From Terriglobia bacterium (GTDB lineage Bacteria; Acidobacteriota; Terriglobia; Bryobacterales; Bryobacteraceae): a DNA stretch of 32,732 nt. Under the pieces are notes generated by a model that worked only from the letters and a program-made list of their open reading frames with translations, was not told the origin of the DNA and searched no databases. Every line of letters begins with the position of its first letter. Position 1 is the stretch's first letter. Shown piece after piece: positions 8,121 to 31,763 of this stretch. The DNA is taken from assembly GCA_025358575.1 (NCBI GenBank), contig JANYJA010000071.1, positions 1-32,732 of the forward strand, in the 5' to 3' direction. Position numbers and translations under genes: made by a program.

Positions 8121-8214
8121 GGAGTCTGAAGTGTCGGAACGATTTGTCGGTGCGGAGCCAGAATTCAAGGGAAACGGAGCGAAGCACACCGGTGCCCCGC
8201 CCCATCGACTGAAA

Positions 8215-13718: not shown

Positions 13719-13736
13719 TGTCCCTTCCAAATTACA

Positions 13737-16493
13737 TCAAGAAAGAAAGAGACCGCGCCGCACGCCTGGGTTATAGGGGACCGAATATCCGATGAGGCAG
13801 AACTGATCGAGAGCAAAGAGGACAACCGATTCCACATTTTCGCCAAGGGACTGTCCGGCTTCTTTTTGCCACGGCGTAGTGTAGTCCGAGATCCCGACAA
13901 GGTGACTTGATTTCGATCGAGGAAATCCGAGCGTAATCGGAAGCAGGACCGAAATTTTCGACTGGTTGAGGTTGCGGGCTGCCGTATAGGAGAAATTTTC
14001 CGTCTTGAGGCAGTCTAGAGTGGCGGGCGACCATGCGCTCAGCGGCAGGTTGACTACGCTCGTGAAGGGATAGTTATTCACATCGGGCGGATATAGCACC
14101 TCAAACTTAGTTTGAGGATATGTCTGGCGAACGAAGGCCATGATCGTAGTAGTAAACTGACCAATCAAGGCAGGCAAGAACGCGGCTTCTTGTGGGTACG
14201 CGGCGGGAGAAGCATTCGCATTAGTGAAGACCGTCATCGGTCTTCCATATTGAGTCGCAAATTGCTGCTGCGTGTAGGCATCGTAAAACGGCATCCCGGA
14301 GCCATCATCGGGGAAGTACCACCACTGCACTTCTCCAAACTGAAGATAGGGAGTTTGGCCAGCGGCAACCAGCACGGTCGCCATGTCGAGATGGACTTGT
14401 TGCCAATAAGCCAGACTCGCGGGCGAAAAATTTGTTTGCAGGGCAGGCGTGTTGAGCAGCACCGGATTTCCGCTCGGATAGCGTTGCGCAATTCCAACTT
14501 GCACCGATGGATCGCCGTGCTGCAGTTCCGTGCTAAACGCCGAAGCGCCCGTTATACCGTAGGCATTGAGGGCGGTGAAAAACCCGCGGGTCCAATCCCG
14601 TGCGGCGCGGTTGATGCGCGGGGTCGCGGCCAAATCGGTTCGCCAGCCGATGTTAGCGATATCATTCAGAACCCCTCCACCTGTGCCATCCACCCCGCCT
14701 GCAAGAGTGGGCCCACTAGCTTGCGGATTGAAACTGGGCGAATTCATGGTGCTTGCCGCGAGTGTGATCGAGTTGCCCGCCGTGCCCATCGATCGGGAAT
14801 AAATAGTGACCGTGGTTCCGCTGGCATGCGCCCATACCGCGGTATAGCCGTTGTTCAGCATTAGCTCAAAGGCTTTGGAAATACTCACAGCGGTATCGCC
14901 AACTAAGTGCAGATGCTGTATCACAGTCGGAGAAACGCCGGAGCCCAGCACGCCGATGGATATTTGCGTAATGCCGCTGTAAGTCGGAGTGCCGTTGAAA
15001 GTAACTGTGCCGCTGGCGTACACATGACCAATTCTGACCAGCTCATAAAACCAAAGCGCGCCGGCGTAATGGTTGGCGCGTCCCTGAAATCCAAGCGTGT
15101 GAATCAGCCATGCGGTGCGTTCAGGGGGAAGTGCAATAGAGTGGTCGGTGTCCCAATCGGTTGCCAGAGTTGTTGTACTCTGGACTGGAAATGTGGGGAG
15201 GGTCACGGATGGGTAGACCACCTCGAGGAAGTCGAAATAGAGATACTCGCCGGAGTTTCCAGCATGAGTCACAACCACTGTATGCGGCGGCCCGCCACTG
15301 AATGTGCCCAACAAGACTCGGCTCAAAACATCTTCACCGGGAATCAGCAGTTGGATGGTCTTTGGGGTTGCTCCATCCACGGAGAAAGTCGCTAGGGAGG
15401 CATTATAAGAGCGCCGAGTGCCCAGATAGAGCTGGTGGCTCCCGCTGGAGGTGTACACGGTGGAGAGACGATCCCCGGGTGTCGTTGTGAAGCCAATCGA
15501 GCCGCCCGAAAAGTTTCCTTTTGAAAAAGACCATGCGCCTGTATAGGAAACCTCGCGCGCGCTGTCCTCTATGCGCCTCGATCCGGGCCCCGCCACCTGA
15601 TATCCGCGACCCGTTCCATTAACGGTCCAATTAGAAACTACTACTGAAAACTCGCTGCGGACATAACTGCCGGGCTGCAAATCGGCCGCGTAGGTCCATC
15701 GCATCTTTCGAATAGCGTTGGCAGGAATTTTTACACCGGTCACATCGGTAAGGGTGGAAAAATTCAAATTGACTTGCCAGGCAGACGGAGAAATTCCACC
15801 CGAAAGATTCTGCGAGACGGGGCTCCACGATTCGCTCCGTGAGCCGCTGACGTTGCCATACACCCCTAGCCGGTTGCCATTTGCGCCGAGGTTTCCGCGG
15901 TAGGTAAGCGTGATTTGGTTACTATTAACGGCTGCCGACATCGTTGTGGAGAACGTATTCACACTGTTTGCCACCGCTGCGACGGACGACGCGAGCGTAT
16001 CTGCCGCTGTAAGTTGGTAGGTGTAGTGCTCCGTCTCCCAAGCCAGTTCGATGTAATCGCCGGGGGTGGGCGTTCCGTTAATTCCGAATGTCGCTGAAGC
16101 CGCGATAGTCGCGCCCGCCACGGACGTTGCGTTAGAGCGCAGGGGAACTTTATAAATCACTTCGCCAGTGCCCGGGTCCGCCCAGATGCGCAACGAGGGC
16201 CAGTCGACGGTTGGGTAAAGGGTCGAGTCCATGGAAATGCAATTTGATCGAGTTTCCTGGTAACTAAGTTGGAGCCCGCTGAGATCTCCGTCTGGAAGGT
16301 TCCGCAAGAGCGGATGCTCAAACGTGTTATCGCGGTTCCATTCAATCACGGCCCAATCGAATTGCTGGCGCCAGGATCCCGAGACGGTAAAGCCGGAGGT
16401 GCTCGTCGAACTTAAGGCGGCAATTGCTGAAGGACGCTGGAAATAGCACAGCAGATCCCGATTCGGCTGCAATTTCGATAACGATTCTGGCAT
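13737..16493 (-). CDS. Large terminal tail protein with TIM-barrel-like C-terminal region
   Basis: 918 residues and the last gene of the phage-like run. The N-terminal half is beta-rich. A module of about 100 residues appears twice, once at about 120-235 and again at about 495-600: 'FNGTPT..G......AVS....LMLNNG....A..G..VTIY...G.AGNSITL', similar to repeats in phage structural proteins. The C-terminal third (LQFGEVQWWYFPDD, PYLQF, FTNANASPAAYP, FEVLYPPDVNNYPFT) looks like a glycoside-hydrolase-type TIM barrel with candidate acidic residues, without a family assignment. Possible roles are a tail fibre, a receptor-cleaving spike, or a decoration/sheath-like protein with a TIM-barrel domain. It starts 3 bp after the hub gene. 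No lytic motif is visible. Confidence 0.65.
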   Translation of the reverse strand: MPESLSKLQPNRDLLCYFQRPSAIAALSSTSTSGFTVSGSWRQQFDWAVIEWNRDNTFEHPLLRNLPDGDLSGLQLSYQETRSNCISMDSTLYPTVDWPSLRIWADPGTGEVIYKVPLRSNATSVAGATIAASATFGINGTPTPGDYIELAWETEHYTYQLTAADTLASSVAAVANSVNTFSTTMSAAVNSNQITLTYRGNLGANGNRLGVYGNVSGSRSESWSPVSQNLSGGISPSAWQVNLNFSTLTDVTGVKIPANAIRKMRWTYAADLQPGSYVRSEFSVVVSNWTVNGTGRGYQVAGPGSRRIEDSAREVSYTGAWSFSKGNFSGGSIGFTTTPGDRLSTVYTSSGSHQLYLGTRRSYNASLATFSVDGATPKTIQLLIPGEDVLSRVLLGTFSGGPPHTVVVTHAGNSGEYLYFDFLEVVYPSVTLPTFPVQSTTTLATDWDTDHSIALPPERTAWLIHTLGFQGRANHYAGALWFYELVRIGHVYASGTVTFNGTPTYSGITQISIGVLGSGVSPTVIQHLHLVGDTAVSISKAFELMLNNGYTAVWAHASGTTVTIYSRSMGTAGNSITLAASTMNSPSFNPQASGPTLAGGVDGTGGGVLNDIANIGWRTDLAATPRINRAARDWTRGFFTALNAYGITGASAFSTELQHGDPSVQVGIAQRYPSGNPVLLNTPALQTNFSPASLAYWQQVHLDMATVLVAAGQTPYLQFGEVQWWYFPDDGSGMPFYDAYTQQQFATQYGRPMTVFTNANASPAAYPQEAAFLPALIGQFTTTIMAFVRQTYPQTKFEVLYPPDVNNYPFTSVVNLPLSAWSPATLDCLKTENFSYTAARNLNQSKISVLLPITLGFPRSKSSHLVGISDYTTPWQKEAGQSLGENVESVVLFALDQFCLIGYSVPYNPGVRRGLFLS

Positions 16494-16496
16494 GGT

Positions 16497-19400
16497 TCAA
16501 ACCCGGATCAAGACCGTAAGGTCGCTTCCCGGACTTGTTACTCCGACGGCGCTAATGTCGAGGCTCAGGTGATCCCCGGCCTTGAATGCTGGAAGGCCCC
16601 GGCCCGGCACCGTTTGTGAAGACAGCCCGTTCGCGGGAATCGTAAGCGTGCAATAGAGCGTGCCGTTGAGGTTCACGTTGCAACTGAGAGGTGAACCCGT
16701 AGGCGCTTGCTTCACAACAGCTGAAATGTCATTAACGACATGGCCGGAATCAATCACGATATCCGGTGCGGCGCCAGTCTGAATCGCTTGGAAACTAGCA
16801 ATCTGGAAAGAGTATTGCCCGCCGGACAGCGTTCGGAGACCTAAATCCACGGTGCCGGTGAACGCCACGGTTGTGATCGCGCTATCTCCCTGGGAATTCG
16901 AAACAAACAAACTGGCGCTCACCACCCGCGCGTTCGGCAGCGAGAGAGAGTAACTCCAGCTTCCGCTTGCTGGACTACCGAAGAAGTTACGAACAAAAGG
17001 AACGACAAATATTCGCGTGGATAGTTGAAAGACCGGTGCCGCGATAGAGTGCGCCGTTGCTAAGGTAGTTTGCTGAGCCCTGGCCACATGATATTGGGTG
17101 CCATTGCCGGTCACCGCTGTTACGGCCAGAATCTCTCCGTCCAGTTGAATAAAGGAACCTGGCAGCGCCACGCCGGCGCTGGAAAGCTGCAGCGTGGTAT
17201 CACTGGCCCCAATGGCGGCGCTGAGCTGCGGATTGGTCGCTGCGTTCAACTCATCGTAATAGAGTAGCGTGAAGGTTCCCGCCGAAACCGTAGTTGTATT
17301 GGCTAAGTTTGGAAACGCAATCGCACCGAAGTTTAAGGTGCCCCCCGGCGTTGCGCCTACACTAACTCCGAACACTGGTGCTGGTGCCACGGCTGCATCG
17401 GTTGTTCGGATGCCAGCCCCGCCGACGATCCATCGCGTGAGGGGTGAAACCTCGTACGGGCATTCGCCATCATTGGCGTTAGCCGACCGCCCTGATATCT
17501 CAATGATGGCACCGGCGCGGTTCGGAATCGGAAACTGAATTCGGTTTCCTTTACCCGTCGCCCCAAACTGAAATCCCGTCTGCGCTACCAGGAAAAAGCT
17601 GGTGCCATCGGGCGTGATATCCCATGGCGGATTGACGTTAAGCACAGTCGGGCTGTTCGAAACGATCGTGCGCTCTTGCAGCGCTCCGGTGCCTCGGGTA
17701 ATTCTTAACGTCATGCTCTGATACTCGTTGGCGATCATCGCGAGTGTGCTATTGCCGACGGAAGTCGGTGACTCTAGATTCGCGACAGTCTCCGGCTGGA
17801 GTTCCAATCGCCAATAGAAGTTAGCATGATCGAAGTATGGATCAGGCGGCAGAATCGTTTGAGACAGCGGCGCTCCCGTGTCCGTAAACTGCGTCATGAG
17901 GGGGACATTAATGGCCACCCCGACCATCTGGCTGGGGGCGTTTCCGCGATATACGTTAAATGCGGAAGCGGTGCCGGGGAAACTAAGACCATTCAAAATC
18001 GTGCTGTTTGTTTGCGTGGTCGTTCCCGTCGTCGTGCGGATCACAAAAGAAAGCCCGCTCTCTTGCGTCGTCGCATCCACACAGCTGACGGCGTAGTAGA
18101 AAGTCCCTCCTCCGGGCAAAGTTCCTCCAGTTGCCATCGGTGTTGCCGCAAGGCTGACTAACGGAATGTTCGGCGCGGAATGCGACACAGCACCTGGCGA
18201 GATGAAGCCCACATTTACCAGAAGCGTGGTAGTTCCATCGAGTGCCTGGCTCGAGCTTTCCACAACGTCGAATTGGAGATTTCCGTTGATGTCTAATGTA
18301 GTGCCCGAAATCGGGCGCGGCGCCCCAATGCCGAATGTCGGCTGACGCCTTCCACCCGAATTTCCGGAAGTCTGCCCGTTGCTGTCCGCGTACCAAGCGT
18401 CGTCGTGAATCTGCGCCATGATTGTCGCCGTACGAAAATTTGCCGAAGGCGACAACTTTAGAATGCGGAATGTCTGGCGCGTGAGCCCTTCTTTCAAGTA
18501 AGTCACGGTGATAATATCGCCTGCCGAAAGACCGACGGCTTTAACGCTGGTCCGGAACTCGATGAAGGAGTTCCCTTTTATGCTCCGGTCCAAGTTAAAC
18601 TTGAGCAGCCTGGCCGCTTGGTCGTAGTTCGGCGTGCCCAACGCGCTGAGTGTAGACTGAATCTCTTGACTTGTACGGTTTACGTCGCTGGCATCGACCA
18701 CCGAATAACTGTCCTGCTGATATTCGTTGAGTGCATCCTGAAATTCCACACTGAATCGGTTGGGCGAGTCCGCGGCATTGCGTGAAAATAGTTTCACGCT
18801 GGATGAGCCGTCGTTCTCACGCAAAATTCCCGAGACACCGGTACTTCCATCGCCGAACTCGTAAGCTGGCCAGCCGCCGTTCAACTGACTCGTGGCATTG
18901 CTCCCCAGAGGCGCAATAGGCTGTTGTAAAGCCACGGTATTTTCGATTCTCAGCTGTAACAGACCGCCGGTGGTGTACGCAAAATACATTCGTGAAGAAT
19001 TCCGGATGCCGCGCAACAGCTCTCCGGCGGAACGGCGATTTTTTACTACCAGGTTGCACTGAAATCGCGCAATCATTATTGTATTTCCGTGCAGGTCCTG
19101 CGTCTGTATGGGTGTCGCGCAATAAGCCGCGGTGTTAGCAAAACTGGCCAGGTCCAGTTCCGCGGGCTGCCAACCGCTTCGTTGCAGAAGATCTAAAATC
19201 ACCCAGGCGGGGTTGTTAGTGAAGCTTTCTCCCAGCGCAGTGCCGTCAGCCGCGTATTCCGGCAGTTTCAGTCCATCTATTAGCACTTGCACCCGGGGAA
19301 GCCCGCGGCCATCGCTGATCCGGTTTGGCACCACTACGGAGAGATACGCCATGGATCCGTAAGGGTCGCCTAATGGGTTCGCTGGTCCATTACTGAAGTC

Positions 19401-20435: not shown

Positions 20436-20439
20436 TGGA

Positions 20440-21237
20440 TTATCCGTTAGTCACAATAGACAGTGCGCAGGAATTGCGGTTCGGCCCGTCTGCCGTAATA
20501 GTCAAGACATCGGATTGAAACCGGGCGTTCGCGTAAACACCTGATTGAGCGTTTGTCTGCACGTACTGCGACGCGGCACTCTGGGCATCAACTTGCAATC
20601 CAAACACGTCGACCGAGAGACCGGCGGGAATCGCTACTGCAAACACGCATGAAGTCCCGCCATTTAATACAGTCCCTACAAGAAGCTTCCGCTGCCAGGC
20701 TGATGCAATCGCGACGGTTGAGGCAGCCGAGTTGCCGCCTGATGTCCGGCTTAAAGTTACGTTGGTCGCCTGACCGCTTCGCAGATACACGCTGAAGCAG
20801 CAAATCAAGGTGCTTGGGATTGACAGGGTCTGCGCCAGAGTCAGTGCTCCGGCACTGGTATTAACGATCCGGGTGGCTCTATTAGTTCCGAGGGGGTCGC
20901 TAATGTTACCCTGGGTGGTCAAGAGCGCATTCTCTTGCCAAACTGTCTGATTCAACGTCTCGCTTTGCGCAAGAAGATTACTAGTTGGGTCGACAAATAG
21001 GAAAGTTTGTAAACTGCCTTCAGTCGATTGAAAAAACTGGCTTAGGGATGCCGCCTCGGCATCGCTGAGACCAGAGTAGCGCAATCCCCACTCGATGGTC
21101 GATTGATTCATATCCGCCAGGACGATGCGGCTTCCATCTTCGGCTTGATTGAGGATAGTTCGCTTTAGACGTTTTGTTTGGATCGGAAACTGCGCTAGTG
21201 CGCCGCTGGATAATTGGGGGAATACAAGCGCCGTCAA
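20440..21237 (-). CDS. Distal-tail (DUF2460-like) paralogue with carbohydrate-binding-like extension
   Basis: The N-terminal 90 residues (TALVFPQLSSGALAQFPIQ...WGLRYSGLSDAEAASLSQFF...FLFVDPTSN) align by eye with the neighbouring 118-aa protein, so the two are tandem paralogues of a distal-tail family. The rest (about 95-265) is a jelly-roll-like region (LLAQSETLNQTVW, FSVYLRSGQATNVTLSR, DVFGLQVD), as often seen in phage proteins that bind sugars. The likely start is TTG at 21237, eight bases after AAGGAAG and overlapping the upstream TGA as TTGA. A longer frame from ATG 21276 overlaps more and matches the paralogue less well. Role: tail-tip ring component, possibly adding a host-contact domain. 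Confidence 0.68.
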   Translation of the reverse strand: MTALVFPQLSSGALAQFPIQTKRLKRTILNQAEDGSRIVLADMNQSTIEWGLRYSGLSDAEAASLSQFFQSTEGSLQTFLFVDPTSNLLAQSETLNQTVWQENALLTTQGNISDPLGTNRATRIVNTSAGALTLAQTLSIPSTLICCFSVYLRSGQATNVTLSRTSGGNSAASTVAIASAWQRKLLVGTVLNGGTSCVFAVAIPAGLSVDVFGLQVDAQSAASQYVQTNAQSGVYANARFQSDVLTITADGPNRNSCALSIVTNG

Positions 21238-21590
21238 GTCCGCACTTCCTTGACCACCAGAGATGTCCGCGCCCATAAATCATCCTGCCAGTCGACCTCA
21301 AAAACACCGTCGATACTACAGTTGGGGTACACCGTGCCGTCCAGAGGATCCGTGAATGAGAAGCTGCCGAACTCGCCCAATTGAGTCACAAAAAGTGTTT
21401 GCAGTACCCCTACCTCGCTTGGGTCGAGCTGATCGAGTTTTACCTCCCAGCGATGAAGGGGTGTTCCCGCCAGCCGGTAACGCTGTTCCGTCGCATCAAG
21501 AAACCGCAAGGCGAGATTGGAGAATTGCGCGGATCGGCGTGCCGGATATTGGGTAACGGCGCCGGTTTTTAGAGTGGGGAAGGCGATCAT
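21234..21590 (-). CDS. Distal tail protein (DUF2460-like)
   Basis: 118 residues. It starts MIAFPTLKTGAVTQYPARR, continues with RWEVKLDQLDPSEVGVLQTLF and GEFGSFSFTDPLDG, a pattern of the DUF2460/distal-tail type, which in gene transfer agents and siphophages forms the ring between tail tube and hub. It begins 2 bp after the tape-measure candidate and overlaps the next gene at TTGA, fitting translational coupling. Position directly between tape measure and hub supports the call. Family membership is by pattern and order only; a profile search would decide it. Confidence 0.7.
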   Translation of the reverse strand: MIAFPTLKTGAVTQYPARRSAQFSNLALRFLDATEQRYRLAGTPLHRWEVKLDQLDPSEVGVLQTLFVTQLGEFGSFSFTDPLDGTVYPNCSIDGVFEVDWQDDLWARTSLVVKEVRT

Positions 21591-21592
21591 GG

Positions 21593-22240
21593 CTAGAGGT
21601 CGTTCACCACGTCGTTGATCGAGTGCATATTGAGCATTGCCTCCCGAACCGCGTGGGCAATGTCATGACTATGGTCCATGAACGACTTACTGTCCATTGC
21701 ATTCACCTGAATCGTAATCGCCTGGTTGGATTGCTGCGCCGCTGGCCGCGAGCCTCCGCTTCCGCCAGCCGCGTCAAATCTGTCGGCAGTGGAGCTTTGA
21801 CTGTCGGTATTCACGGCGTCACGAAACTGAATTGGTGCTGGAGCAATATATCGCATTAACGGTTCGGGTTGAGACGGTCCACCGCCAAATAGTTTCGCGA
21901 TACCGGATATTAGCGGAAGCAGACTCAAAGTGTCGCCCAATAGGCCGGAGGCCGCGCCACTTAAGGCGCTCGCGATTCCTCCCGAGACGCCCGAGCTCGA
22001 CGACTTCGACACCGTGTTCTGCCCTAATGCCTGTGTATTAGAGAGAAGATATTCGGCCTGAACCTGCGTCGTAGCTGTTAGTTGCCCGATTTGTTTCGTT
22101 GCTTGCTGGAATACGGTTGATAGATCGCGCTGCCCATCTAGTGCTGCACCACGGATGGCTGCCGAAAGGCTCGCGCCGATATCCTCGCCAGTTTTTCCGC
22201 TCATTCCTTCGGCTAGCCGATTAATTGTCTTGTCTGTCAT
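21593..22240 (-). CDS. Short tape-measure protein candidate
   Basis: 215 residues in the tape-measure position, right after the chaperone pair and before the distal-tail gene. The N-terminal half is helical and Gln/Ala-rich (DLSTVFQQATKQIGQL), the centre (about 85-121) is a hydrophobic Gly/Ala/Leu segment (SALSGAASGLLGDTLSLLPL), and the C-terminus (TIQVNAMDSKSFMDHSHDI) resembles the conserved end of tape-measure proteins in short-tailed siphophages and GTAs. Typical siphophage tape measures have 600 to more than 1500 residues; since length sets tail length, this predicts a very short tail. The ATG overlaps the end of the frameshifted chaperone frame by 20 bases. Alternative: a different tail-tip factor, with the true tape measure missing. 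Confidence 0.65.
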   Translation of the reverse strand: MTDKTINRLAEGMSGKTGEDIGASLSAAIRGAALDGQRDLSTVFQQATKQIGQLTATTQVQAEYLLSNTQALGQNTVSKSSSSGVSGGIASALSGAASGLLGDTLSLLPLISGIAKLFGGGPSQPEPLMRYIAPAPIQFRDAVNTDSQSSTADRFDAAGGSGGSRPAAQQSNQAITIQVNAMDSKSFMDHSHDIAHAVREAMLNMHSINDVVNDL

Positions 22241-22589
22241 CCGATCGCTCTCTTTCGAGTTCCGCTCCTAGCACTAAGAATGCTTCTAGCTTCCGTGCCT
22301 CCATCTGTTCGTAGTTGCTGCTTCCAAACTTTCGCCAGATTTGAAACTCTTCGAACCATCCGGTGCTCTCCGCGGTGACGACCGATCTGGGACATGTGTT
22401 GAGCGCCACTCCATTGCGAACCCAAACCGGCCGGACCGGCGTTTTGCTTGCTTCCGGTATCCAGGAACAACGCCGCTTCATCTCCAGGCCGGCTTTCCGG
22501 CATGAGTCGCAGTCCCAGCCGGCCTGGGCGGAACGATAAAAGTGGAATGCGACCGCTAGTTTTTTCTTTCGTTCTCGTCTAGTCCGCAC
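22221..22589 (-). CDS. Tail assembly chaperone, -1 frameshift extension (T part of gpG-T)
   Basis: This frame has no good start of its own and overlaps the end of the preceding chaperone. It is read most plausibly by -1 frameshifting at A AAA AAC (22565-22559), entering as K K L A V A F and adding 112 residues up to 22221. The joined product would be about 235 residues. The extension contains WDCDSCRKAGLEMKRRC, a CxxC...C pattern that could bind zinc, and an FEEFQIWRKF helix. In lambda and many siphophages the analogous gpG/gpGT proteins bind the tape measure and recruit tail tube subunits. The tape-measure ATG overlaps its end. Listed here as the open frame; the functional extension runs 22559 to 22221. 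Confidence 0.75.
   Translation of the reverse strand: MRTRRERKKKLAVAFHFYRSAQAGWDCDSCRKAGLEMKRRCSWIPEASKTPVRPVWVRNGVALNTCPRSVVTAESTGWFEEFQIWRKFGSSNYEQMEARKLEAFLVLGAELERERSDDRQDN
22484..22527 (-). promoter_or_regulatory. Possible stimulatory hairpin for the frameshift
   Basis: A perfect 11-bp inverted repeat, CCAGGCCGGCT at 22484-22494 and AGCCGGCCTGG at 22517-22527, with a 22-base loop, lies in the chaperone extension. It begins 31 bases after the slippery site on the transcript. This is further than the usual 5-9 bases, so it may stimulate only as part of a larger fold, or simply be coding sequence. Not tested by energy calculation. Confidence 0.4.
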
Positions 22590-22927
22590 TGGGCTTTCAC
22601 TGCCTTCAGCGCCTCGTGGAACAGATCTTCCGGGCCCCTCTGAATCAGTGTTTCGGGCGTGGCCGGTGCTCCGTCGATCGTCAATCCATGGATCTCACGA
22701 AGCCCCCACTCCACATATACCTGGTCGATCTCCGCCGAGAGCACCGCGCCCTCCAACTTGTCGATATCCGATGTTCCGGCCCGCGTAAAATCTCGTCTTG
22801 CCGCAATTTCCCGGATCTTTCCGAGCAGATTCATCCGCCTTGCAAATGACATCCGCGCAATCGAGAAGCTTACGCCCTCTTGGCGCTCCGACATGACCAC
22901 GACGCAACTCTCGTAAATTGAATTCAC
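22556..22927 (-). CDS. Tail assembly chaperone (gpG-like), frameshift donor
   Basis: 123 residues from a GTG at 22927, which overlaps the stop of the tail-tube gene as GTGA; this was chosen over an ATG 63 bases upstream that lies inside the tube gene. The protein is mostly helical and charged (FARRMNLLGKIREIAARRDF, YVEWGLREIHGL) and ends at a TAG right after a slippery heptamer. Position between tail tube and tape measure, size and the frameshift are the standard marks of gpG-type chaperones, although sequence similarity in this family is low. The short form should be the main product and the extended form a minority. Confidence 0.78.
   Translation of the reverse strand: MNSIYESCVVVMSERQEGVSFSIARMSFARRMNLLGKIREIAARRDFTRAGTSDIDKLEGAVLSAEIDQVYVEWGLREIHGLTIDGAPATPETLIQRGPEDLFHEALKAVKAQCGLDENERKN
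22559..22565 (-). promoter_or_regulatory. Programmed -1 ribosomal frameshift slippery site (A AAA AAC)
   Basis: In the zero frame the codons read GAA AGA AAA AAC TAG. The heptamer A AAA AAC sits exactly in the X XXY YYZ register and is one of the most efficient bacterial slippery motifs. The zero-frame stop TAG follows directly. After a -1 slip both tRNAs re-pair on AAA AAA and reading continues with CTA GCG in the frame of the downstream chaperone extension. The placement at the end of the short tail-chaperone gene, just before the tape measure, matches the conserved arrangement in tailed phages. Confidence 0.85.
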
Positions 22928-24096
22928 CCGAACGCCACCACGATTTCGTCGTTCGCCGTTCCCTGTGATCGCGAATTCCGAAATTTCCATTGCAGTCTGC
23001 GATCGCCATCCTCAAACTCCGGAACCTCCGGCACCACGCTGTTCATCGAGACGCCGAAAAGTTGTCCCGCCGATTGGCCTAGCTGAAACGAAACCGAAAT
23101 TGGGGACTGCTGCCGCGCCGCTTGGTACAATTCCGGGGTCGCCGCGTCATCTTGTTCGAATAGATCTAAGTCCATGCTCACTGTTCGGCGTCCCGGAGAA
23201 ATCGCACGCGGCAATGTCGAACCAAACTCCCGAGCTCTTAAGTCAAGATTGTTGCTAAGCTGAACGGCCGCGCTGGTGATTGTGTAAAAACGGTTCGCCA
23301 CCGTGCCCATCCAGGCCTGGCCCAAATGTCCCGCAACAATCGTGTAGTCGAAGTTTCCCGCAGCCGGCTCTGGCGGAAACGCCGTAAGTTGCCCCGATCC
23401 CGAGCTGAAGCTAGTGCTGTCGATAAGGTCCTGCGCCACTCCACTGAATTGAAATTCGTGGTAGTCTCCATTGATATTCACCGAAAACTTGTCAATAGCC
23501 GCCCCGGAGAGGATACGATGGACCGCCGTCGCCGGTGACCAATAATCGAAGATGCTCACACTCGGAAGCACGCTTGCCAAACCATACGTCACGGTAGGCC
23601 CAATCGATGCTCCGGCCGTCGGTGCGATCGAAAACGGTGCGTTCAACAGCACTGTAGACGCATCGATAACCGCCGCCACAAAGCGGAGCTCGCCGTTGTA
23701 TTGCACGGCCTGCTGAACAGCCAGTCCGTGCGGCGCGGTAAATCCGATTGTCGTCAGCGAAGACGTCGCGCTCGACGTCGCTCCGTAAAAGATCTGGCCC
23801 GGGGCTCCCATAGCCGCCTGAAATAGCGGACCATATGCTGGGCTTGCTCCCGGCTGAGACAGAGTGGTCATGTACGTTTTTATGTCGAAGGTTGTTTTCC
23901 TTCGTCCGTTCGGCGGATTCCCGACAAAGGTGCGGCTGCCGTTTTTGTCGCGACGCTCGCCTAGTTCGAGTTGTTGACGCGCGGTCAGTTTTACCGCCGG
24001 AAACCGGTTCTGCGCGGCAATGCTCCCTACCTGTCCATACGCGGCCTCCAGTTGGCAGTACCAGCGGTTATCGTTCGATGAAATATAAGATGACAT
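22924..24096 (-). CDS. Major tail tube protein
   Basis: 390 residues. It opens MSSYISSNDNRWYCQLEAAYG, typical for the start of siphophage tube proteins of the larger type, followed by beta-rich sequence with FPAVKLTARQQLELGERRDKNG, FVGNPPNGRRKTTFDI, YHEFQFSGVAQDLID and a C-terminal strand-rich region ending in DRRLQWKFRNSRSQGTANDEIVVAFG. Order (after the completion protein and before the chaperone with its GTGA overlap) strongly supports this role. Subunits would stack as hexameric rings around the tape measure. It is longer than minimal tube proteins (about 150-250 residues), so an inserted Ig-like domain on the outside of the tail is possible. Confidence 0.75.
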   Translation of the reverse strand: MSSYISSNDNRWYCQLEAAYGQVGSIAAQNRFPAVKLTARQQLELGERRDKNGSRTFVGNPPNGRRKTTFDIKTYMTTLSQPGASPAYGPLFQAAMGAPGQIFYGATSSATSSLTTIGFTAPHGLAVQQAVQYNGELRFVAAVIDASTVLLNAPFSIAPTAGASIGPTVTYGLASVLPSVSIFDYWSPATAVHRILSGAAIDKFSVNINGDYHEFQFSGVAQDLIDSTSFSSGSGQLTAFPPEPAAGNFDYTIVAGHLGQAWMGTVANRFYTITSAAVQLSNNLDLRAREFGSTLPRAISPGRRTVSMDLDLFEQDDAATPELYQAARQQSPISVSFQLGQSAGQLFGVSMNSVVPEVPEFEDGDRRLQWKFRNSRSQGTANDEIVVAFG

Positions 24097-24110
24097 TGTC
24101 TGATCGCTTT

Positions 24111-24602
24111 CTATTTACTAACCTCGACTTCTAATCCTATCCGCCCCGTTTGCAGGAAATTGTGGCCGCCTTGGCGCACCGGCTCAAACACTACTTCGTA
24201 TCCGCCTGCGTAGAACGCGCCGTTTCCCCAATCTCCGCGTGCTTTGTCGAGCAGCTGGCAAACCGTCTCCGTATAAAGTTGTAACCGGTCGCCTATTCCT
24301 TCGAGCCGGTCCTGCGAAAATCGCACGTCGACGGTCACGTGGGCTTTGCCTGAAAATGGCCGGAACTTCTCTCGTAGTTGGTTGCTCAATTTGTCGCAGT
24401 AAATTAGGATCGCTGGATATTTGGCATGCAGACTCTTCTCCGCCAATTCCACGGATGTGTATTGCGTCGTGATAATCTTTACTTGCGGCGGTGGGGCGAT
24501 GCCTGTCGCTTGCGCCAGCGAGCTAACACCCGCGTCGATTCCGGGCGCAACTGTAAGAATCTGAATTACCTTCCCTGTCAGGGTGTTGCTTATGCTCGTC
24601 AT
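24111..24602 (-). CDS. Tail terminator/completion-like protein
   Basis: 163 residues, with the start ATG one base after the previous stop and AGAGGC upstream. Segments such as KYPAILIYCDKLSNQLREKF, AHVTVDVRFSQDRLEGIGDRL and GLEVEV give an alternating helix/strand pattern like gpU-type or HK97-gp10-type completion proteins that cap the tail where it meets the head. Position just before the tail tube gene supports this. No motif is diagnostic, so the function is inferred from order. Confidence 0.6.
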   Translation of the reverse strand: MTSISNTLTGKVIQILTVAPGIDAGVSSLAQATGIAPPPQVKIITTQYTSVELAEKSLHAKYPAILIYCDKLSNQLREKFRPFSGKAHVTVDVRFSQDRLEGIGDRLQLYTETVCQLLDKARGDWGNGAFYAGGYEVVFEPVRQGGHNFLQTGRIGLEVEVSK

Positions 24603-24603
24603 G

Positions 24604-25371
24604 TCAGCCTCTCTGAATACGAGTGGGCAGGAGCCGCGTCGAGTTGGGAATCTGTCCCGTGCCTGGCGCCCGTCCAGTTACCGCCGTAATAGCGGTGTAC
24701 TGCCAGTTCTGGCCGGCTGCGATCGGCGTAGAATTCTGCAGGCTCAAACCGCTCGGGTTTGTCCCCACATAGACGTTCCACACCGTGGAGTTCGGTGGCA
24801 TGTTCACGGCTCCTATCAACAAAACATTGCCGTCTGGAACAGTGACGGAAGTTACAATCGAAGGAGTGCTTTCCTCCCCAGCCACGTTGACGTAAGTCAC
24901 GCAGACATAAAAATTGCCACCCGGTTGGGAGGCTGGCTGAAACGTAAACCCGGGCTGACTAGCCATCAAAAGCGGGTCCGTCACCAGTCCGATGCCCGCA
25001 TCGACAAAGTTTTTCTTTGCCCACCTAGCCAAGCTTTGAAACTGGTTCCGCTTTGCGAGGTATCGATCGTTTATCTCGTTAAAATATGCGTCGCTGTAGA
25101 ACATCGCCAAGGATTCATATACGTGCCATAGCTTGAGTGCAGGTGTCACCGCAAGGTGGGCTGTGTCCAGAGGAGTCTGACCGTACAACGGAGAGTAGAT
25201 TGTCTGCTGCCCCTGAAAGATCGCAGCGAGGTCGGCACTAATATGATCTTGGGCGGCACTCAGCTTGTTAGTAACGTCGATACCTTCGCTGCCTGCAATT
25301 GCGATCAGGCTCGAATCTTGAAGCGTCAGATCGGCGATCGACGCCATCAGTCCATCTGTGAATAGCGCCAT
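24604..25371 (-). CDS. Head-tail connector-like protein with C-terminal Ig/Fn3-like domain
   Basis: 255 residues. A helical N-terminal part (about 1-135; MALFTDGLMASIADLT, LKLWHVYESLAMFYSDAYFNEINDRYLAKRNQF) resembles connector/adaptor proteins. A beta-sandwich follows (about 155-250; PGGNFYVCVTYVNVAGEESTP, NVYVGTNPSG) and looks like the Fn3/Ig module also seen in the 1312-aa hub protein. AAGGAGGA precedes the ATG. Position, between coat and tail completion genes, suits an adaptor at the portal. Surface Ig-like domains on phage particles often give weak binding to glycans. The adaptor role is inference; the two-domain layout is seen directly. Confidence 0.6.
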   Translation of the reverse strand: MALFTDGLMASIADLTLQDSSLIAIAGSEGIDVTNKLSAAQDHISADLAAIFQGQQTIYSPLYGQTPLDTAHLAVTPALKLWHVYESLAMFYSDAYFNEINDRYLAKRNQFQSLARWAKKNFVDAGIGLVTDPLLMASQPGFTFQPASQPGGNFYVCVTYVNVAGEESTPSIVTSVTVPDGNVLLIGAVNMPPNSTVWNVYVGTNPSGLSLQNSTPIAAGQNWQYTAITAVTGRAPGTGQIPNSTRLLPTRIQRG

Positions 25372-25386
25372 GCGTCTATCCTCCTT

Positions 25387-25710
25387 TTACGCTTTCTCTT
25401 TCGTTGCGGGGCGTGCAGCCCGCAACTCATTTGATGGAATCACCATCACCTGCATTCTGTTCGCGACAGCCAATTGTTCTGAAACTCTCTGCGCTTCCAA
25501 ATTTTGCTCGGCAAATGCGACCGTCTCTTCCTGAGTAGCCAGACGTGCGAAACCTTCCACGATCGTCCTTGCAGCGACGTGCTTCGCTACCTCTGTCCGA
25601 ACACCCTCTTTGCCTCCATCCGACGTTTCCAGGCTTACAATTACGATGAACCGCTCCGTAAGAGTAGCCTCCAGCGCACGAACTTTTCGGTAATATGCTC
25701 GTAAGTCCAC
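25387..25710 (-). CDS. Small conserved-position protein of the head module
   Basis: 107 residues from a GTG at 25710, chosen because AGGAG lies seven bases upstream; the frame stays open to 25764 but that part covers a strong hairpin. The protein is helical with alternating charge (DLRAYYRKVRALEATL, EGFARLATQEETVAFAEQNL). It lies between the coat and connector genes, where head-completion or decoration proteins occur. I do not recognise the family. Confidence 0.6.
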   Translation of the reverse strand: MDLRAYYRKVRALEATLTERFIVIVSLETSDGGKEGVRTEVAKHVAARTIVEGFARLATQEETVAFAEQNLEAQRVSEQLAVANRMQVMVIPSNELRAARPATKEKA

Positions 25711-25730
25711 GATGAGTCTCCTCTTAACTT

Positions 25731-25754
25731 TGGGGCGGGCTGTGGGCCCGCCCC
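25731..25754 (-). promoter_or_regulatory. GC-rich hairpin just after the coat gene
   Basis: A perfect 8-bp stem, GGGGCGGG at 25731-25738 and CCCGCCCC at 25747-25754, with an 8-base loop, lies in the gap after the coat gene stop. No T-run follows in the transcribed (minus) direction, where AAAGTTAAG comes next, so it is not a classical terminator. It may protect the 3' end of a coat-rich transcript or attenuate read-through; this is a common way to raise coat expression relative to downstream tail genes. Confidence 0.55.
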
Positions 25755-25764
25755 TTGATGACAC

Positions 25765-26676
25765 TTAGCAGGTAACTTGGACGCCGAAGTTATTGCGAAG
25801 CACCGCGCATCCGTAGAGAACGTCAACGGTGAACTGTTGCGCCAGCGTGTTCGGCTGGTAGCTCATAGTCACGCGCATTCCGAAGCTGCCAAGTTCCGCG
25901 TACTCTGCGATGGCACCTGTTCCCGGAAGTGGCTGGGGCAAACGCCGAACTACTAGCCCAATACCGTTGCGCGCGAATGCCAAGTTGTGCGTCGCCACCG
26001 GCGCACTGCCTGTTTTCGCAACGAACTGTGAACGAAAGACGTAGAAGTCTTTGATTTTGCCGATGGTTCCATCAATCAAGGTACGCAGTCCAGCCTCGCC
26101 CGCTGTCTGGAATTCGCTGAATCGCGAAATCTGGCGCATCTGCGAATAAGTGTTCGCGTCCACTACCAAAAATTTCGGTTCAGCCGCTGGAACCTTCGCT
26201 GAGAACAATGCGGTCTCCGCTAGGTCAAGAATCGACTCGTTAATCACGGTTCCGGCCGCACCGACCGGAGAGTTTGCGGTGAAACCCGCATAGAGATTTA
26301 GCAGGTCGCTCTCAATGCGTTCCGCGATTGCAACCACAGCCGGCTGCATATAGACTTTTAACAGATCCGGAACCGCCAAAACTTTCGTGATATCTGGAAT
26401 CTGAAACGTCGCTTCCGCATGGGTGTTTAGCACAATCTGCGCGTTGCCCAGGTTCGGGTTCTGCGTCTGAACTGTGCCGCCCTCCGCTATGTTGTTCGCC
26501 ACCAGGGTGGGTGGAATCGGCACATTCACCGTATCACCGGCCTGCGCCAGCGTCGGCTCATAGTCGCGGTTCACCAGGTTCCCCATCACCAAATTCCCAA
26601 CCAGTGCGGGCAAAGCGTCGGCCGCTACCAGTTTAACGATCGCGTTCGCTACGTTTGCTGAAGTAATTATTGGCAT
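25765..26676 (-). CDS. Major capsid protein (P22 coat-like, HK97 fold)
   Basis: 303 residues in the coat position after a scaffold gene. The N-terminus (VANAIVKLVAADALPALVGNL) and segments such as GDTVNVPIPPTL, PDLLKVYMQPAVVAIAERI, FLVVDANTYSQM and DFYVFRSQF follow the pattern of the P22-type coat family. There is no N-terminal propeptide or neighbouring protease gene, which fits a scaffold-dependent assembly rather than a proteolytic one. GGAG precedes the ATG. It ends NNFGVQVTC. Product: about 32 kDa icosahedral shell subunit. Confidence 0.82.
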   Translation of the reverse strand: MPIITSANVANAIVKLVAADALPALVGNLVMGNLVNRDYEPTLAQAGDTVNVPIPPTLVANNIAEGGTVQTQNPNLGNAQIVLNTHAEATFQIPDITKVLAVPDLLKVYMQPAVVAIAERIESDLLNLYAGFTANSPVGAAGTVINESILDLAETALFSAKVPAAEPKFLVVDANTYSQMRQISRFSEFQTAGEAGLRTLIDGTIGKIKDFYVFRSQFVAKTGSAPVATHNLAFARNGIGLVVRRLPQPLPGTGAIAEYAELGSFGMRVTMSYQPNTLAQQFTVDVLYGCAVLRNNFGVQVTC

Positions 26677-26731
26677 TTTTCTCCGTCTTTTTCCTTAGTC
26701 AATTGCAAGAAGTCTGGCCTCTCGCTCGTCG

Positions 26732-27292
26732 CTACACACTTCTCAACGTCTGAGAAGCAACCCGCAAAATCTCTTGCCGCACCCGTTCCAATTCGTCTCT
26801 GCTCATGGAAGGGCTAATTTTGTCTATGTCCACAGGCCCACCTCCGGATTGCGTTTTAGCTGGGGCCGTGAATCCAGAACCGCCAGCGATTCTTGCTGGA
26901 AGAAATTCCGGATTCTCATTCACGAAGCCCGTCAGGTATTCCTTGGCGCTGATTTCACCTTGGTCCCCCTTTGCGACGAGCCTTCCATCCTCACCCCGGT
27001 AGATTTCGTCCTGCACGGCTTTGAAAGCCAGATCTACCTTGGTCACTCCAAGTTGCTGTAGCTCTGAGCGAATGCTCGAGCCTCGCTCGGCTTCGGCCGC
27101 AATCTTCCGGTTGCGCTTGTTCTCCTCCGCCATCTCGTTCAAACGCTTTTCAAGCTGTTCACGCTTGCGCCGCTCTTCCACCAGCTCAGCCTTATACGCC
27201 GGCTCTTTCCTGGATATATCTTGCCGCGCGTATTCCTGTATCGCCTCTTTTACCAGCGCCTGCACATCCACTGTCCCGTCGTTCTGCGCCAT
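26732..27292 (-). CDS. Scaffolding protein
   Basis: 186 residues from ATG 27292, six codons inside the open frame, preferred because GGAGGAGAGC sits directly before it. The protein is highly charged and helical, with a long coiled-coil region rich in Glu, Lys and Arg (about residues 30-75) and a hydrophilic tail ending in a helix-rich C-terminus (MSRDELERVRQEILRVASQT). Such composition and its place between portal and coat are typical of phage scaffold proteins, which guide procapsid assembly and then leave. No cysteine or catalytic motif is visible. Confidence 0.75.
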   Translation of the reverse strand: MAQNDGTVDVQALVKEAIQEYARQDISRKEPAYKAELVEERRKREQLEKRLNEMAEENKRNRKIAAEAERGSSIRSELQQLGVTKVDLAFKAVQDEIYRGEDGRLVAKGDQGEISAKEYLTGFVNENPEFLPARIAGGSGFTAPAKTQSGGGPVDIDKISPSMSRDELERVRQEILRVASQTLRSV

Positions 27293-27310
27293 GCTCTCCT
27301 CCCCTGTCAC

Positions 27311-28783
27311 TTACTGCCCGCCTCCCACAAACGAGGCGTCAATCTCAGAGACAATTTTGTTCTTGACGTCTTGCCGCACGTCGCATAGATACTTGAGCGC
27401 AATCCGCTTAAATATCTGCTGCTTCAGCGTTTCCGAGCCGATCCCTAGCGCGAGGAGATTCTTCGCATCGCTCAGCTCCGAACTGAAATCCCCAATGTCG
27501 AATTCGTCCAGTCCAGACACGTCAATCTCGAGGCCGTCCTTGCGCGCCCATTCGACCGACTCCAACACCTGCCGCATCACATCCTTCACGGCGTCACCGT
27601 AAGCGCGCAGAATTTCTTGGGTGATGCTGAAATCCCGCTGCTTGCTGATACCCGATTGCTGTTGATTCGAAGACTGCGAGCTAGCTTGATTCAGCAAATA
27701 ACAGACCCGGTAAATCTCGTCCTTTAGTCTCGATAAGTTATCGGCCGCGATCTGGTGAACATGACCCTCAGGCTCAGCCCATCCGAATCGATCGTTGGGA
27801 CCCAGTTGTATGTAATAGGATTCTCCAGTGATCTGATTCCACTCCCGGTCGGAATAGATTACCGGCGTCGCGAAAAGCCCCATAGTCAATGCCCACGAAA
27901 GCGCGTTTGATTTGTTAAAGTGCTCCAGTTGGAGAAGCGCCGCCTTATTCATCAGCCACATGCCGTCGCTGACTCTAAGTTCGAACACTGGAACTCGGTG
28001 TTGATCCGCAAGCCCGTGCCGGCCGCTGTCGACTAACTCAATCGCCGGTCCAGACCCTGTTTCGCTCTCTTCTCGGCGATAAATCTGGTAGTTTTCGCGG
28101 TCATAAACCAGCCAGCGCGATTCTCGCTTCCATTCGCGGTCATTGATATTGTCTTGCCGCCGGTCTGCCGTCCGAATAACAATCCACTCCAAGTTGCCGC
28201 GCACGTCCCGCGCCCAATTGATCACTTGTTCTGGCGAATATTCCACCAGATAACCTCGAGAACGCCCCTTGGCATCCTCCTCAGCTCGGCTCGCGGCTGG
28301 CTCCGTCATCCGAGGAAACTCCACAGCCGTGTACGAGCTTCCGAAGATCAGCGTGTTGGTAAGTTGCCTCTTGAAGAACTCAGCCAACGTGGTCCCGCGA
28401 AGGTCACAGTCTTTGACGAAGGTAGCGAAGAACGTCTTCCCTGCTTCATTGTTCCCGTCAAACTGCAGCACTGCTTCCCGCCGCATCAGCGTCGCGCCGT
28501 ACCAGTCGATAATCGTCCCGATATAGTTTTCGTAGAAAACGTGAGTCAGCCGTTCGAAGTACACGTCCGGTGGCTCTTTACTCCTGCGGGTTAAGTAATC
28601 GGAAGCCCGCCGGCGCAGTTCTTCTCCCCCGGCATACAGGTGCTTGTACCGCCGCCACATCGCCTGGTTTTCCCGGTATTCAGGATGTTCTTGCTCAATA
28701 TGATGCATAGCTTGCTTCAGCTCTCCTAGAACAGCCGGTTCGATTGTGCCCCTATTTTTGCGAGTGGCTTGAACTGCTGCCAC
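27311..28783 (-). CDS. Portal protein
   Basis: 490 residues, right after the terminase and overlapping it by 58 bases. Recognisable segments are YIGTIIDWYGATLMRRE and FKRQLTNTLIFGSSYTAVEF (wing region), DREWNQITGESYYIQLGPND, and a helical C-terminal part including LKDEIYRVCYLLNQ, SGISKQRDFSITQEIL and the stretch with VMRQVLESVEWAR. This order matches portal proteins that form a dodecameric ring at one capsid vertex. The GTG at 28783 is used; ATG 28708 (residue 26) lies after an AGGAG that is placed too far, and could be an alternative start. No deletion or frameshift is visible. Confidence 0.82.
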   Translation of the reverse strand: MAAVQATRKNRGTIEPAVLGELKQAMHHIEQEHPEYRENQAMWRRYKHLYAGGEELRRRASDYLTRRSKEPPDVYFERLTHVFYENYIGTIIDWYGATLMRREAVLQFDGNNEAGKTFFATFVKDCDLRGTTLAEFFKRQLTNTLIFGSSYTAVEFPRMTEPAASRAEEDAKGRSRGYLVEYSPEQVINWARDVRGNLEWIVIRTADRRQDNINDREWKRESRWLVYDRENYQIYRREESETGSGPAIELVDSGRHGLADQHRVPVFELRVSDGMWLMNKAALLQLEHFNKSNALSWALTMGLFATPVIYSDREWNQITGESYYIQLGPNDRFGWAEPEGHVHQIAADNLSRLKDEIYRVCYLLNQASSQSSNQQQSGISKQRDFSITQEILRAYGDAVKDVMRQVLESVEWARKDGLEIDVSGLDEFDIGDFSSELSDAKNLLALGIGSETLKQQIFKRIALKYLCDVRQDVKNKIVSEIDASFVGGGQ

Positions 28784-30030
28784 ACTAAATATCCCAGTGC
28801 GTCCGATAGGTGAGTTCGCCGTCGGTCTCGATCTTTATCGACTTCCATGCTGTCCTGCTTGTAAGACACCTGCTCAAAGTCCTTAATCAATTCCACGCAG
28901 CTTGCATCCAACATCAGGTCTACTTCGCCAGCTTGATTTCTGAGCTTGGCATTCATTGCGTTCACCCGATCCCGAATCGGCGGGTTCGCTTTTCCCGTAT
29001 CGAACTGAACGCGCCCTCGGTAGTTCATCCTCAGGTAATCGCGGACCATTTCGTAGTCCGAAGCACCCGACGTCTTCATGCTGTGTCCCGAAGCGTCGCC
29101 GTACACGATCACCTCGCAGCCCAAACCTCCGAACCGGCTCACAAACTCATGACAGGCCTGTTCCGTCGTGGCCCGCCGGATGACAATTTCCCCTAGCACT
29201 CGGACCGATGCGGCCTTCGTTTGCACCACGACTGAACTCATCGGATCCACGTTAAAATCGAGCGCCCACCTCAGTGGCATGGACGCCTCCGTTTCAAGCC
29301 GTCCCACATGCAACTCGCGATCAAATGACGGGTACACCAATCCGCCACTCATATTCAGATAGGAACCCAAGACCTCCTGCGGATAGAAGCTTTCGTCGTA
29401 GCTATGCCTCAGTCGATCGTAGAAGTCGGGTACCTGCTCCAACAAGTGCTTGTTCTCAAACGCTTTGGCGATTACCGTCTCATAACCGGCCGCTCTCTCT
29501 GAAACAAATTTGCGATAGACCCAGTCGTAGCCCTTCGGTGTCCAAACAGCGAATCCGCACAACCGCGAAGCCTTTGGATCCCGAAGTCGCCCTTCTAGCC
29601 GCAACCAGGCCCCTTCGTGCGCGTAAGTCAGTTCGTCCAGGCCAAACCAAGCCAAGTTCGTTCCCCGCAGCCTTTCAAAATCATCAACTGGCCGGAACAG
29701 TATTCGGGACCCTGTGTCCGTCATCGTTAAAATGTTTTCTGACTTATTCATCGTGAACGGAATGGCGTTCCCGTAGAGCACTTCAAACAGCGAAGTCTGG
29801 GTTGCATCCCGCAACATCGGATATGTAGGAGCGCCAAGCAGCCCCATTCGGCCGGGGTTCAAATAGCTTAACTTGATTGCTTCCTGGCACAGGGCCTGAC
29901 TCTTTCCCGATCCGATGGGGCCCGAGAAACCTTTGAATCTTGCCGTACTTCGGTGAAAAGCGCGCTGCGATGAGAGCGCATTATACAGAATTACCCGTTT
30001 ACGAGTTCTACCTCGATCGTCTCCACCCAT
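28726..30030 (-). CDS. Terminase large subunit
   Basis: 434 residues, two-domain packaging motor. ATPase domain: Walker A GPIGSGKS (37-44), Walker B LAWFGLDE with Asp132 and Glu133. Nuclease domain: three acidic residues at the expected places, Asp258 in DFNVDP, Asp312 in YGDASG and Asp410 in HLSDALGY, so an RNase H-like active site looks intact. The family type (Terminase_6-like, headful packaging more than cos) is suggested by motif spacing and cannot be settled. The gene overlaps the preceding 71-aa gene by 40 bases. All active residues being kept argues against old decay. Confidence 0.92.
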   Translation of the reverse strand: MGGDDRGRTRKRVILYNALSSQRAFHRSTARFKGFSGPIGSGKSQALCQEAIKLSYLNPGRMGLLGAPTYPMLRDATQTSLFEVLYGNAIPFTMNKSENILTMTDTGSRILFRPVDDFERLRGTNLAWFGLDELTYAHEGAWLRLEGRLRDPKASRLCGFAVWTPKGYDWVYRKFVSERAAGYETVIAKAFENKHLLEQVPDFYDRLRHSYDESFYPQEVLGSYLNMSGGLVYPSFDRELHVGRLETEASMPLRWALDFNVDPMSSVVVQTKAASVRVLGEIVIRRATTEQACHEFVSRFGGLGCEVIVYGDASGHSMKTSGASDYEMVRDYLRMNYRGRVQFDTGKANPPIRDRVNAMNAKLRNQAGEVDLMLDASCVELIKDFEQVSYKQDSMEVDKDRDRRRTHLSDALGYLVWQQFKPLAKIGAQSNRLF

Positions 30031-30206
30031 TCAACCGTCACCCGGTCGGAATCGTCATCCGGCATTAACTCCCCAGACACTTGAATCAGCTTGACAAAAT
30101 CTGCCACGCTTGACTTAAGCTCTCCGGCGGTTATGTCCATGTAAACTTTGTCAAGCACCAATTGCACTTGGTGGGCTCGCGTCTTCGGACTCCCTGATTC
30201 CTCCAT
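29991..30206 (-). CDS. Small protein at the start of the phage-like cassette
   Basis: 71 residues, preceded by GGGAG at five bases. It contains a helical core (HQVQLVLDKVYMDITAGELKSSVADFVKLI) and an acidic end (DDDSDRVTVEWVETIEVE). Its location just before the large terminase is where a small terminase subunit is expected, but no clear helix-turn-helix motif can be seen and it is short for that family. It is the first gene of the run and overlaps the large terminase gene. Confidence 0.55.
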   Translation of the reverse strand: MEESGSPKTRAHQVQLVLDKVYMDITAGELKSSVADFVKLIQVSGELMPDDDSDRVTVEWVETIEVELVNG

Positions 30207-30277: not shown

Positions 30278-30466
30278 TCCCGACAACAAGCTACCACCAT
30301 TACGAAACCCAGTCCGAGCTAGATAAAACGTAAGTGATTAAGAACAAAAGACACTATAGTCGGACAGTGGTCTGTGACCGCAACAGTTTGTCGATGGTAA
30401 GCTGTGCGAAGAGGAACGTGATCGTAAATCCCGCGCGCATCCGTCAAGTACGGCCTAAAACTCGGT

Positions 30467-30781
30467 TTATCGTCGTAAGCCGGTTTGATAATCGAGCACG
30501 CTGCGCTGCAGTTGATAGTCATAGCGGGCGCTGGCGTCGGTGACCTGCGCGCTGGTTTGGTTAAGCTGCGCTTGGCTAAGTTCAACGATGGAACTGAGAC
30601 CCAGATCACAGCGCGTCCGCGCAAGATCGAGAGCCAAAGTAGCCTGAGCAAGCAATTCCGCGGTTAACGCAAGCCGCTGGTAGGCGTTGCTGGCATTGAG
30701 CCATCCCACCTGGACATCGCGCGTGATTTGATTTGCGGTGTTGCGCAGATTTTGATCCGCGGCTTGTGCGCGCAGCTCGGA
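30467..30781 (-). pseudogene. TolC-like outer membrane efflux protein fragment
   Basis: An open frame of about 104 codons without a start, reading SELRAQAADQNLRNTANQIT, DVQVGWLNASNAYQRL, ALDLARTRCDLGLSSIVEL, SQAQLNQTSAQ and YDYQLQRSVLDYQTGL. These are typical of the C-terminal third of TolC/OprM-type outer membrane factors. The rest of the gene is missing upstream, where a different pseudogene begins at once, so the fragment marks an old deletion or rearrangement. Positions follow codon phase and the stop at 30467. Confidence 0.7.
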
Positions 30782-31722: not shown

Positions 31723-31763
31723 GTAAGTCAAGGACCCCGGCTGGTTGCCGATATTTCCTACGA

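Follow-up and report, generated by a model that had tools for sequence, protein, structure and literature searches.

A head-and-tail gene cassette conserved across an acidobacterial family is probably a vertically inherited, gene transfer agent-like element

We find that a compact cassette of phage-type head and tail genes, present in most genomes of one acidobacterial family, is probably an independently domesticated, vertically inherited element resembling a gene transfer agent (GTA), with the packaging and transfer of host DNA as its putative function to judge from gene content. The window analyzed here, a stretch of 32,732 nucleotides that makes up the entire contig C156, contains 16 co-directional, tightly packed genes at positions 13737-30206 of the minus strand, running from terminase to tail tip with all frames open and with intergenic gaps that are mostly 0-15 bp or overlaps (maximum 55 bp; Table 1). 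An initial annotation had described just such a compact one-strand, terminase-to-tail cassette with open frames, in a presumed member of the Acidobacteriota and lacking integrase, repressor, replication and lysis genes as well as att repeats, and each of these points held up. Named relatives place the source genome in the family Bryobacteraceae/Solibacteraceae (order Bryobacterales), profile searches of both window flanks returned no integrase, repressor, replication or lysis gene, and exact direct repeats shared by the two flanks reach no more than 12 bp, which is not above chance given the 11-14 bp obtained in shuffles. Only ~2.5 kb of the source genome lie upstream of the cassette in this window, though the contigs of relatives extend further. 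Neither flank contains phage-like genes. On the downstream side, the Wzt-type ABC ATPase and M24 peptidase genes are accompanied by further genes of cellular type, and the farther upstream neighbor is an amidohydrolase gene. Nearer the cassette, at 30319-31731, short overlapping ORFs and a carboxypeptidase-regulatory-domain gene resemble degraded cellular genes.

Table 1. Features of the cassette and its downstream neighbors, in window coordinates
Feature	Position	Strand	Basis or remark
Small-terminase-like protein, 71 aa	29991..30206	-	Overlaps TerL; assignment inferred by position
Terminase large subunit TerL, 434 aa	28726..30030	-	phrog_2, E 1.7e-36
Portal protein	27311..28783	-	phrog_145, E 2.9e-49
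Probable scaffold protein, 192 aa	26732..27310	-	Between portal and coat; charged, helical-looking; conserved 45-70%
Major coat protein, P22/HK97-fold family, 303 aa	25765..26676	-	PF11651 P22_CoatProtein, E 2.4e-17; phrog_283, E 2.5e-39
Small head-completion-type protein	25387..25764	-	Position and conservation only
Head-tail connector candidate, 255 aa	24604..25371	-	Position and conservation only
Tail terminator/connector candidate, 163 aa	24111..24602	-	Position and conservation only
Major tail (tube) protein candidate	22924..24096	-	phrog_290 tail protein, E 2.7e-14
Tail assembly chaperone, first frame (G-like)	22556..22990	-	Position; slippery heptamer at end
Programmed -1 frameshift site, A AAA AAC	22559..22565	-	Directly before stop codon
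Tail assembly chaperone, second frame (T-like extension)	22221..22589	-	Overlapping frame via -1 shift; conserved in cassettes read
Short tape-measure protein, 215 aa	21593..22240	-	Between G/GT genes and DUF2460; related prophages have 999-1145 aa there
DUF2460 distal-tail-type protein a	21234..21590	-	PF09343, E 1e-5, under curated cut-off
DUF2460 distal-tail-type protein b	20440..21276	-	PF09343, E 4.6e-5, under curated cut-off
Tail hub/tip protein, 1312 aa	16497..20435	-	PF13550 Phage-tail_3, E 4e-8; central tail fiber J, phrog_31, E 8.6e-20
Tail-tip TIM-barrel protein, NCTSP-like, 918 aa	13737..16493	-	PF23845, E 1.1e-18
Wzt-type ABC ATPase, downstream neighbor, not part of the particle	12498..13730	-	PF14524/PF00005; marker of the ancestral site; adjoins cassette or scar in many genera
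M24 peptidase, downstream neighbor	11282..12451	-	PF00557; same synteny

The intact terminase motifs noted at the outset are kept well beyond this genome: the Walker A (GPIGSGKS) and Walker B (WFxxDELT) motifs of TerL are conserved among 21 homologues, as are three candidate nuclease aspartates, and the key acidic residues are invariant. The small-terminase-like protein has a helical hairpin and an [IV]x[VIA]xW tail, its conserved domain amounting to only ~50-60 residues behind a variable tail, and a counterpart ORF with the W signature was present in 95 of 104 cassettes. Searches of this protein detected no HTH or other DNA-binding domain and no Pfam match, and its AlphaFold model, two helices with a pLDDT of 75, had no significant match in the PDB. 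The coat protein is 74-85% identical across the family, and its profile matches the solved phage coats 8zdh and 8e16. No head protease was recognized between portal and coat, where a scaffold-like gene is found instead. The TerL proteins of two cassettes (L044 in genome G158 and L219 in G635) are unusually divergent and group toward the phage side, a possible case of TerL replacement.

Programmed -1 frameshifts of a similar kind are known in the tail chaperones of long-tailed phages, and the cassette has kept this signal. The heptamer A AAA AAC occurs in 119 of 127 distinct chaperone copies and other slippery heptamers in 4 more (total 123/127), compared with a background of 0.25% per in-frame position; in most copies the heptamer lies immediately 5' of the stop codon, and the -1 frame stays open over 43-132 codons. 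The conservation of the frameshift signal shows that tail assembly itself is under selection. At the distal end, solved-structure searches with the second DUF2460 protein and the hub returned nothing relevant, and the NCTSP gene is missing from the end of some cassettes, including L033, L038, L039 and L048. In the G635 cassette (L219, 5290-7833), a beta-helix, tail-spike-like gene and one other gene are inserted between the tape measure and DUF2460.

The cassette is widespread within the family and, in the samples searched, close to confined to it. The portal gene was found in 199 of 237 family genomes, nearly always as a single copy, and the coat gene, usually also in one copy, in 146 of the 170 genomes that are at least 90% complete, covering 62 of 64 genera in a sample that includes many MAGs. 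One carrier is an isolate, Acidobacteriaceae bacterium KBS 96, whose cassette (L214) lies on KB906767 near 2.94 Mb. Some near-complete family genomes truly lack the cassette, with both portal and hub missing, and as ~14% of near-complete genomes have no coat gene, the element is dispensable. Gene order, which the initial annotation had marked for comparison across the family, is identical in the ~35 cassettes read, and the large genes are open in 20 diverse genomes and likewise in the main copies of a second batch. Outside the family, an even sample of 396 genomes from the phylum gave only weak coat matches and no strong one; it included three family members, two of which have the cassette. 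In a sample of the order, the cassette occurs in one genome from a second family (G635) but not in that genome's sampled relatives, which leaves room for occasional transfer.

Within the family, the history of the cassette largely follows that of its hosts. For 33 genomes, we compared an rpoB tree, a thin single-gene basis for the host phylogeny, with a tree of five concatenated cassette proteins. With IQ-TREE, the two trees have 18 of 30 splits in common, and 16 of the 17 rpoB splits with bootstrap of at least 95 were recovered in the cassette tree, as were 13 of 14 in the reverse direction, with one contradiction. Congruence was weaker in the FastTree versions, which share 14 of 30 splits (label shuffles: mean 0.26, maximum 2) and in which the cassette tree contradicts three deep splits of the rpoB tree; patristic distances from these FastTree trees correlate at 0.67, a value reached by 0 of 999 permutations. 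Pairwise NG86 estimates of dN/dS (2-16 pairs per gene, and rough at high dS) indicate purifying selection on every gene, with the lowest medians for coat (0.04), portal (0.06), scaffold (0.08), NCTSP (0.08) and TerL (0.09) and values of 0.10-0.20 for the remaining cassette genes. Between two cassettes, L185 and L189, the hub is 99.6% identical, the portal 96% and the tail tube 88%, indicating recombination between close cassettes.

The chromosomal site is conserved as well. A Wzt ATPase gene, an M24 gene or both follow the cassette in ~9 genera, including the deep lineage of G046. Within genus g64, the same site holds a full cassette in G176, a cassette leading directly into M24 in G189 and a Wzt-M24 pair with no cassette in G187 and G191, and two species, G178 and G179, share an identical internal deletion in which the small terminase is kept and TerL codon ~57 is joined in frame to NCTSP residue ~150. 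What the site records is an element handed down in one location and lost in particular lineages, the reverse of repeated insertion. In four high-quality genomes, the cassette is flanked (+/-20 kb) by ordinary cellular genes, and no temperate-prophage genes for integration, replication or lysis are among the PHROG matches listed for these flanks. When the region preceding the small-terminase gene was aligned genus by genus in several genera, no defensible promoter or operator motif emerged. The initial annotation had favored a maintained GTA-like element over a rotting or strain-specific prophage, and synteny, dN/dS, tree congruence, site and flanks all support that view: descent has been mainly vertical, judging by the congruent trees and the conserved site, and the flanking phage life-cycle genes that would have spoken against it are absent from relatives. 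As a separate matter, the TerL(1-57)-NCTSP fusion left by the g64 deletion (L431 in G179 and L435 in G178) remains open at a dN/dS of 0.094 over a dS of 0.76, which suggests a function for the NCTSP part independent of the particle, beside the Wzt ATPase.

Kogay et al. 2022 (PMC9662315) set out three genomic criteria for GTAs, namely caudoviricete-derived particle proteins, full endogenization and mostly vertical inheritance with co-diversification, and three particle-based ones, namely packaging of mostly random host DNA, a head too small for the element's own genes and delivery to cells. The particle proteins of the cassette are caudoviricete-derived by their profile matches and TerL; it is chromosomal, with cellular flanks in high-quality genomes and a conserved site; and its vertical descent is seen in 16 of 17 supported rpoB splits, with one contradiction, and in the shared deletion scar. 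The cassette thus displays all three of the six properties that genomes can test, and the remaining three need particles. At 16.5 kb it would fit a normal phage head, which counts against its self-exclusion from the particle. In known GTAs, too, no DNA-binding domain is detectable in the small terminase (PMC11841831).

Among the closest known systems, RcGTA (Rhodogtaviriformidae) is likewise a one-strand head-tail cluster of ~15 genes without integrase or replication genes that co-diversifies vertically with its host, and the two share a very short tape measure, DUF2460 and Phage-tail_3 tip proteins and a small terminase without a DNA-binding domain. RcGTA has an HK97-type coat with a prohead protease encoded upstream, whereas the cassette has a P22-type coat with a scaffold candidate, shows no recognizable cell-wall peptidase and belongs to a different phylum. 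The resemblance to the Rhodobacter agent that was first suggested is therefore borne out for the tail module only (215 aa tape measure, two sub-threshold DUF2460 matches, then a PF13550 hub) and breaks down at the head, with its PF11651 coat, scaffold candidate and lack of a recognized protease. Since coat and head maturation differ, we reject membership of the RcGTA family. To our knowledge, a P22-type capsid is not known from any GTA, and of the systems compared here, we know of packaging shown by experiment only for RcGTA. Bartonella BaGTA, Brachyspira VSH-1, Desulfovibrio Dd1 and Methanococcus VTA are also independently domesticated tailed phages that persist as host-inherited particle producers; their gene sets are regarded as unrelated. 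The nearest TerL from an isolate, 33% identical over 93%, is that of the cyanophage KBS-S-2A group, but these are free phages of ~40 kb, and their coat is not among the matches listed. We found no earlier description of the cassette in the openly licensed papers searched, though one may exist elsewhere; Eichorst et al. 2018 (PMC5900883) report prophages from acidobacterial genomes, that of KBS 96 among them, but do not interpret them as GTAs.

We propose that the head-and-tail module of a tailed phage was captured by an ancestor of this family, beside the genes for the Wzt-type ATPase and M24 peptidase, and was then passed down mainly vertically. The cassette probably makes small, short-tailed, siphovirus-like particles, with a P22-type capsid that TerL would load with DNA. 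As the cassette lacks excision and replication genes and its small terminase shows no recognizable DNA-binding domain, that DNA would consist of unselected pieces of the host chromosome. Delivery to related cells would occur via a tail whose length is set by the ~200-residue tape measure, and random packaging of host DNA together with delivery to kin would make the element functionally a gene transfer agent. We identified no regulator or lysis system for the cassette, and regulation and lysis may be encoded elsewhere in the genome.

A few family genomes (G020, G208, G127, G118 and G017) also carry full prophages with related genes. Those at G020:C156, G208:C1, G127:C144 and G118:C157 share with the cassette related genes for coat, portal, tail tube, DUF2460 and hub, arranged in the same overall order, but differ from it in their extra head and tail genes, their long tape measures where measured, the replication genes in the surrounding loci and their patchy occurrence. 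The interval from tail tube to DUF2460 is 0.7-1.7 kb in ~100 cassettes versus 4.3 kb in prophages L227 and L230, whose tape measures of 1145 and 999 aa are about five times as long as that of the cassette; the one other long interval, in the G635 cassette, is due to its inserted genes, and the tape measure there is 225 aa. Prophage L232 encodes a 203 aa protein before TerL, where cassettes have only the short small-terminase domain, and a DNA polymerase, processivity factor and exonuclease were present among the prophage loci, which were scanned together.

The coats of these prophages tell a different story from their portals and tails. Of six related prophages, five have a coat nearest to the cassette coat of their own genome or genus (the G017 prophage and G017 cassette are 86% identical and pair with bootstrap 100; bootstrap is 91 for G127 and 97 for G208a with G201/G208), while the prophage portal and tail protein form a clade separate from the cassette genes. 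The coat gene has apparently been exchanged repeatedly between phages and the resident cassette, the prophages concerned being L230 (G020), L232 (G127), L226 (G208), L406 (G118) and L408 (G017). Phages were probably the recipients, because the coats of the cassettes track the lineages of their hosts, with those of the prophages nested inside. This affinity of coats, with portal and tail protein distant, is also what might be expected if the cassette were a domesticated capsid-forming element, satellite-like or defensive, that interferes with phages or supplies them with coat and for which gene transfer is secondary or absent. We consider this unlikely, as simple recombination between homologous genes would account for the coat exchange equally well, known satellites have integrase and hijacking genes of which the cassette has none, and capsid interference would not call for a full tail set with a tip protein.

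That all of the proteins are phage-derived, and that full prophages with related genes exist in the family (L227, L230, L232 and L406), might instead point to an ordinary prophage, repeatedly acquired or decaying, with its remaining genes lost or located elsewhere. We judge this to be very unlikely given the fixed gene order and usually single copy over 62 genera, the host-congruent tree, the conserved site, the lack of att repeats, the open frames and the low dN/dS, and given that the true prophages are patchy and differently organized. A tailocin, that is, headless phage tails that kill competitors, would suit the complete tail module with its hub, TIM-barrel tip protein and conserved chaperone frameshift as well as the long vertical persistence typical of tailocins, but is highly improbable, since terminase, portal, scaffold and coat, all needless for a tailocin, are present throughout and among the most constrained genes (dN/dS medians 0.04-0.09), with invariant TerL catalytic residues.

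Few lineages, most of them in the Alphaproteobacteria, have well-established GTAs. If the cassette is indeed a domesticated GTA-like element, it would represent an independent origin in a dominant soil phylum, would make the reasons for GTA retention testable by comparing unrelated cases and would offer a means of gene exchange for bacteria in which manipulation is difficult. We put at about even the chances of a broader proposal, that this is a still-active, independent GTA system throughout the family, with a capsid type new for GTAs and a coat repeatedly taken up by infecting phages, and thus a viriform that feeds genes back to viruses.

These results also bear on viromics, as at least 590 IMG/VR contigs classed as viral carry relatives of the cassette (at least 596 by coat and at least 593 by TerL), many of them trimmed to ~16-17 kb, the size of the cassette alone. 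No Wzt gene was found in eight long IMG/VR contigs. Of three longer contigs read into their flanks, two run into cellular genes that resemble, as named by eye, TypA, ribonuclease E/G, an RND pump and asparagine synthase. In the third (L440, IMG/VR 3300037101_000256), the coat gene at 7170-8687 is interrupted by an insertion with a recombinase-like gene.
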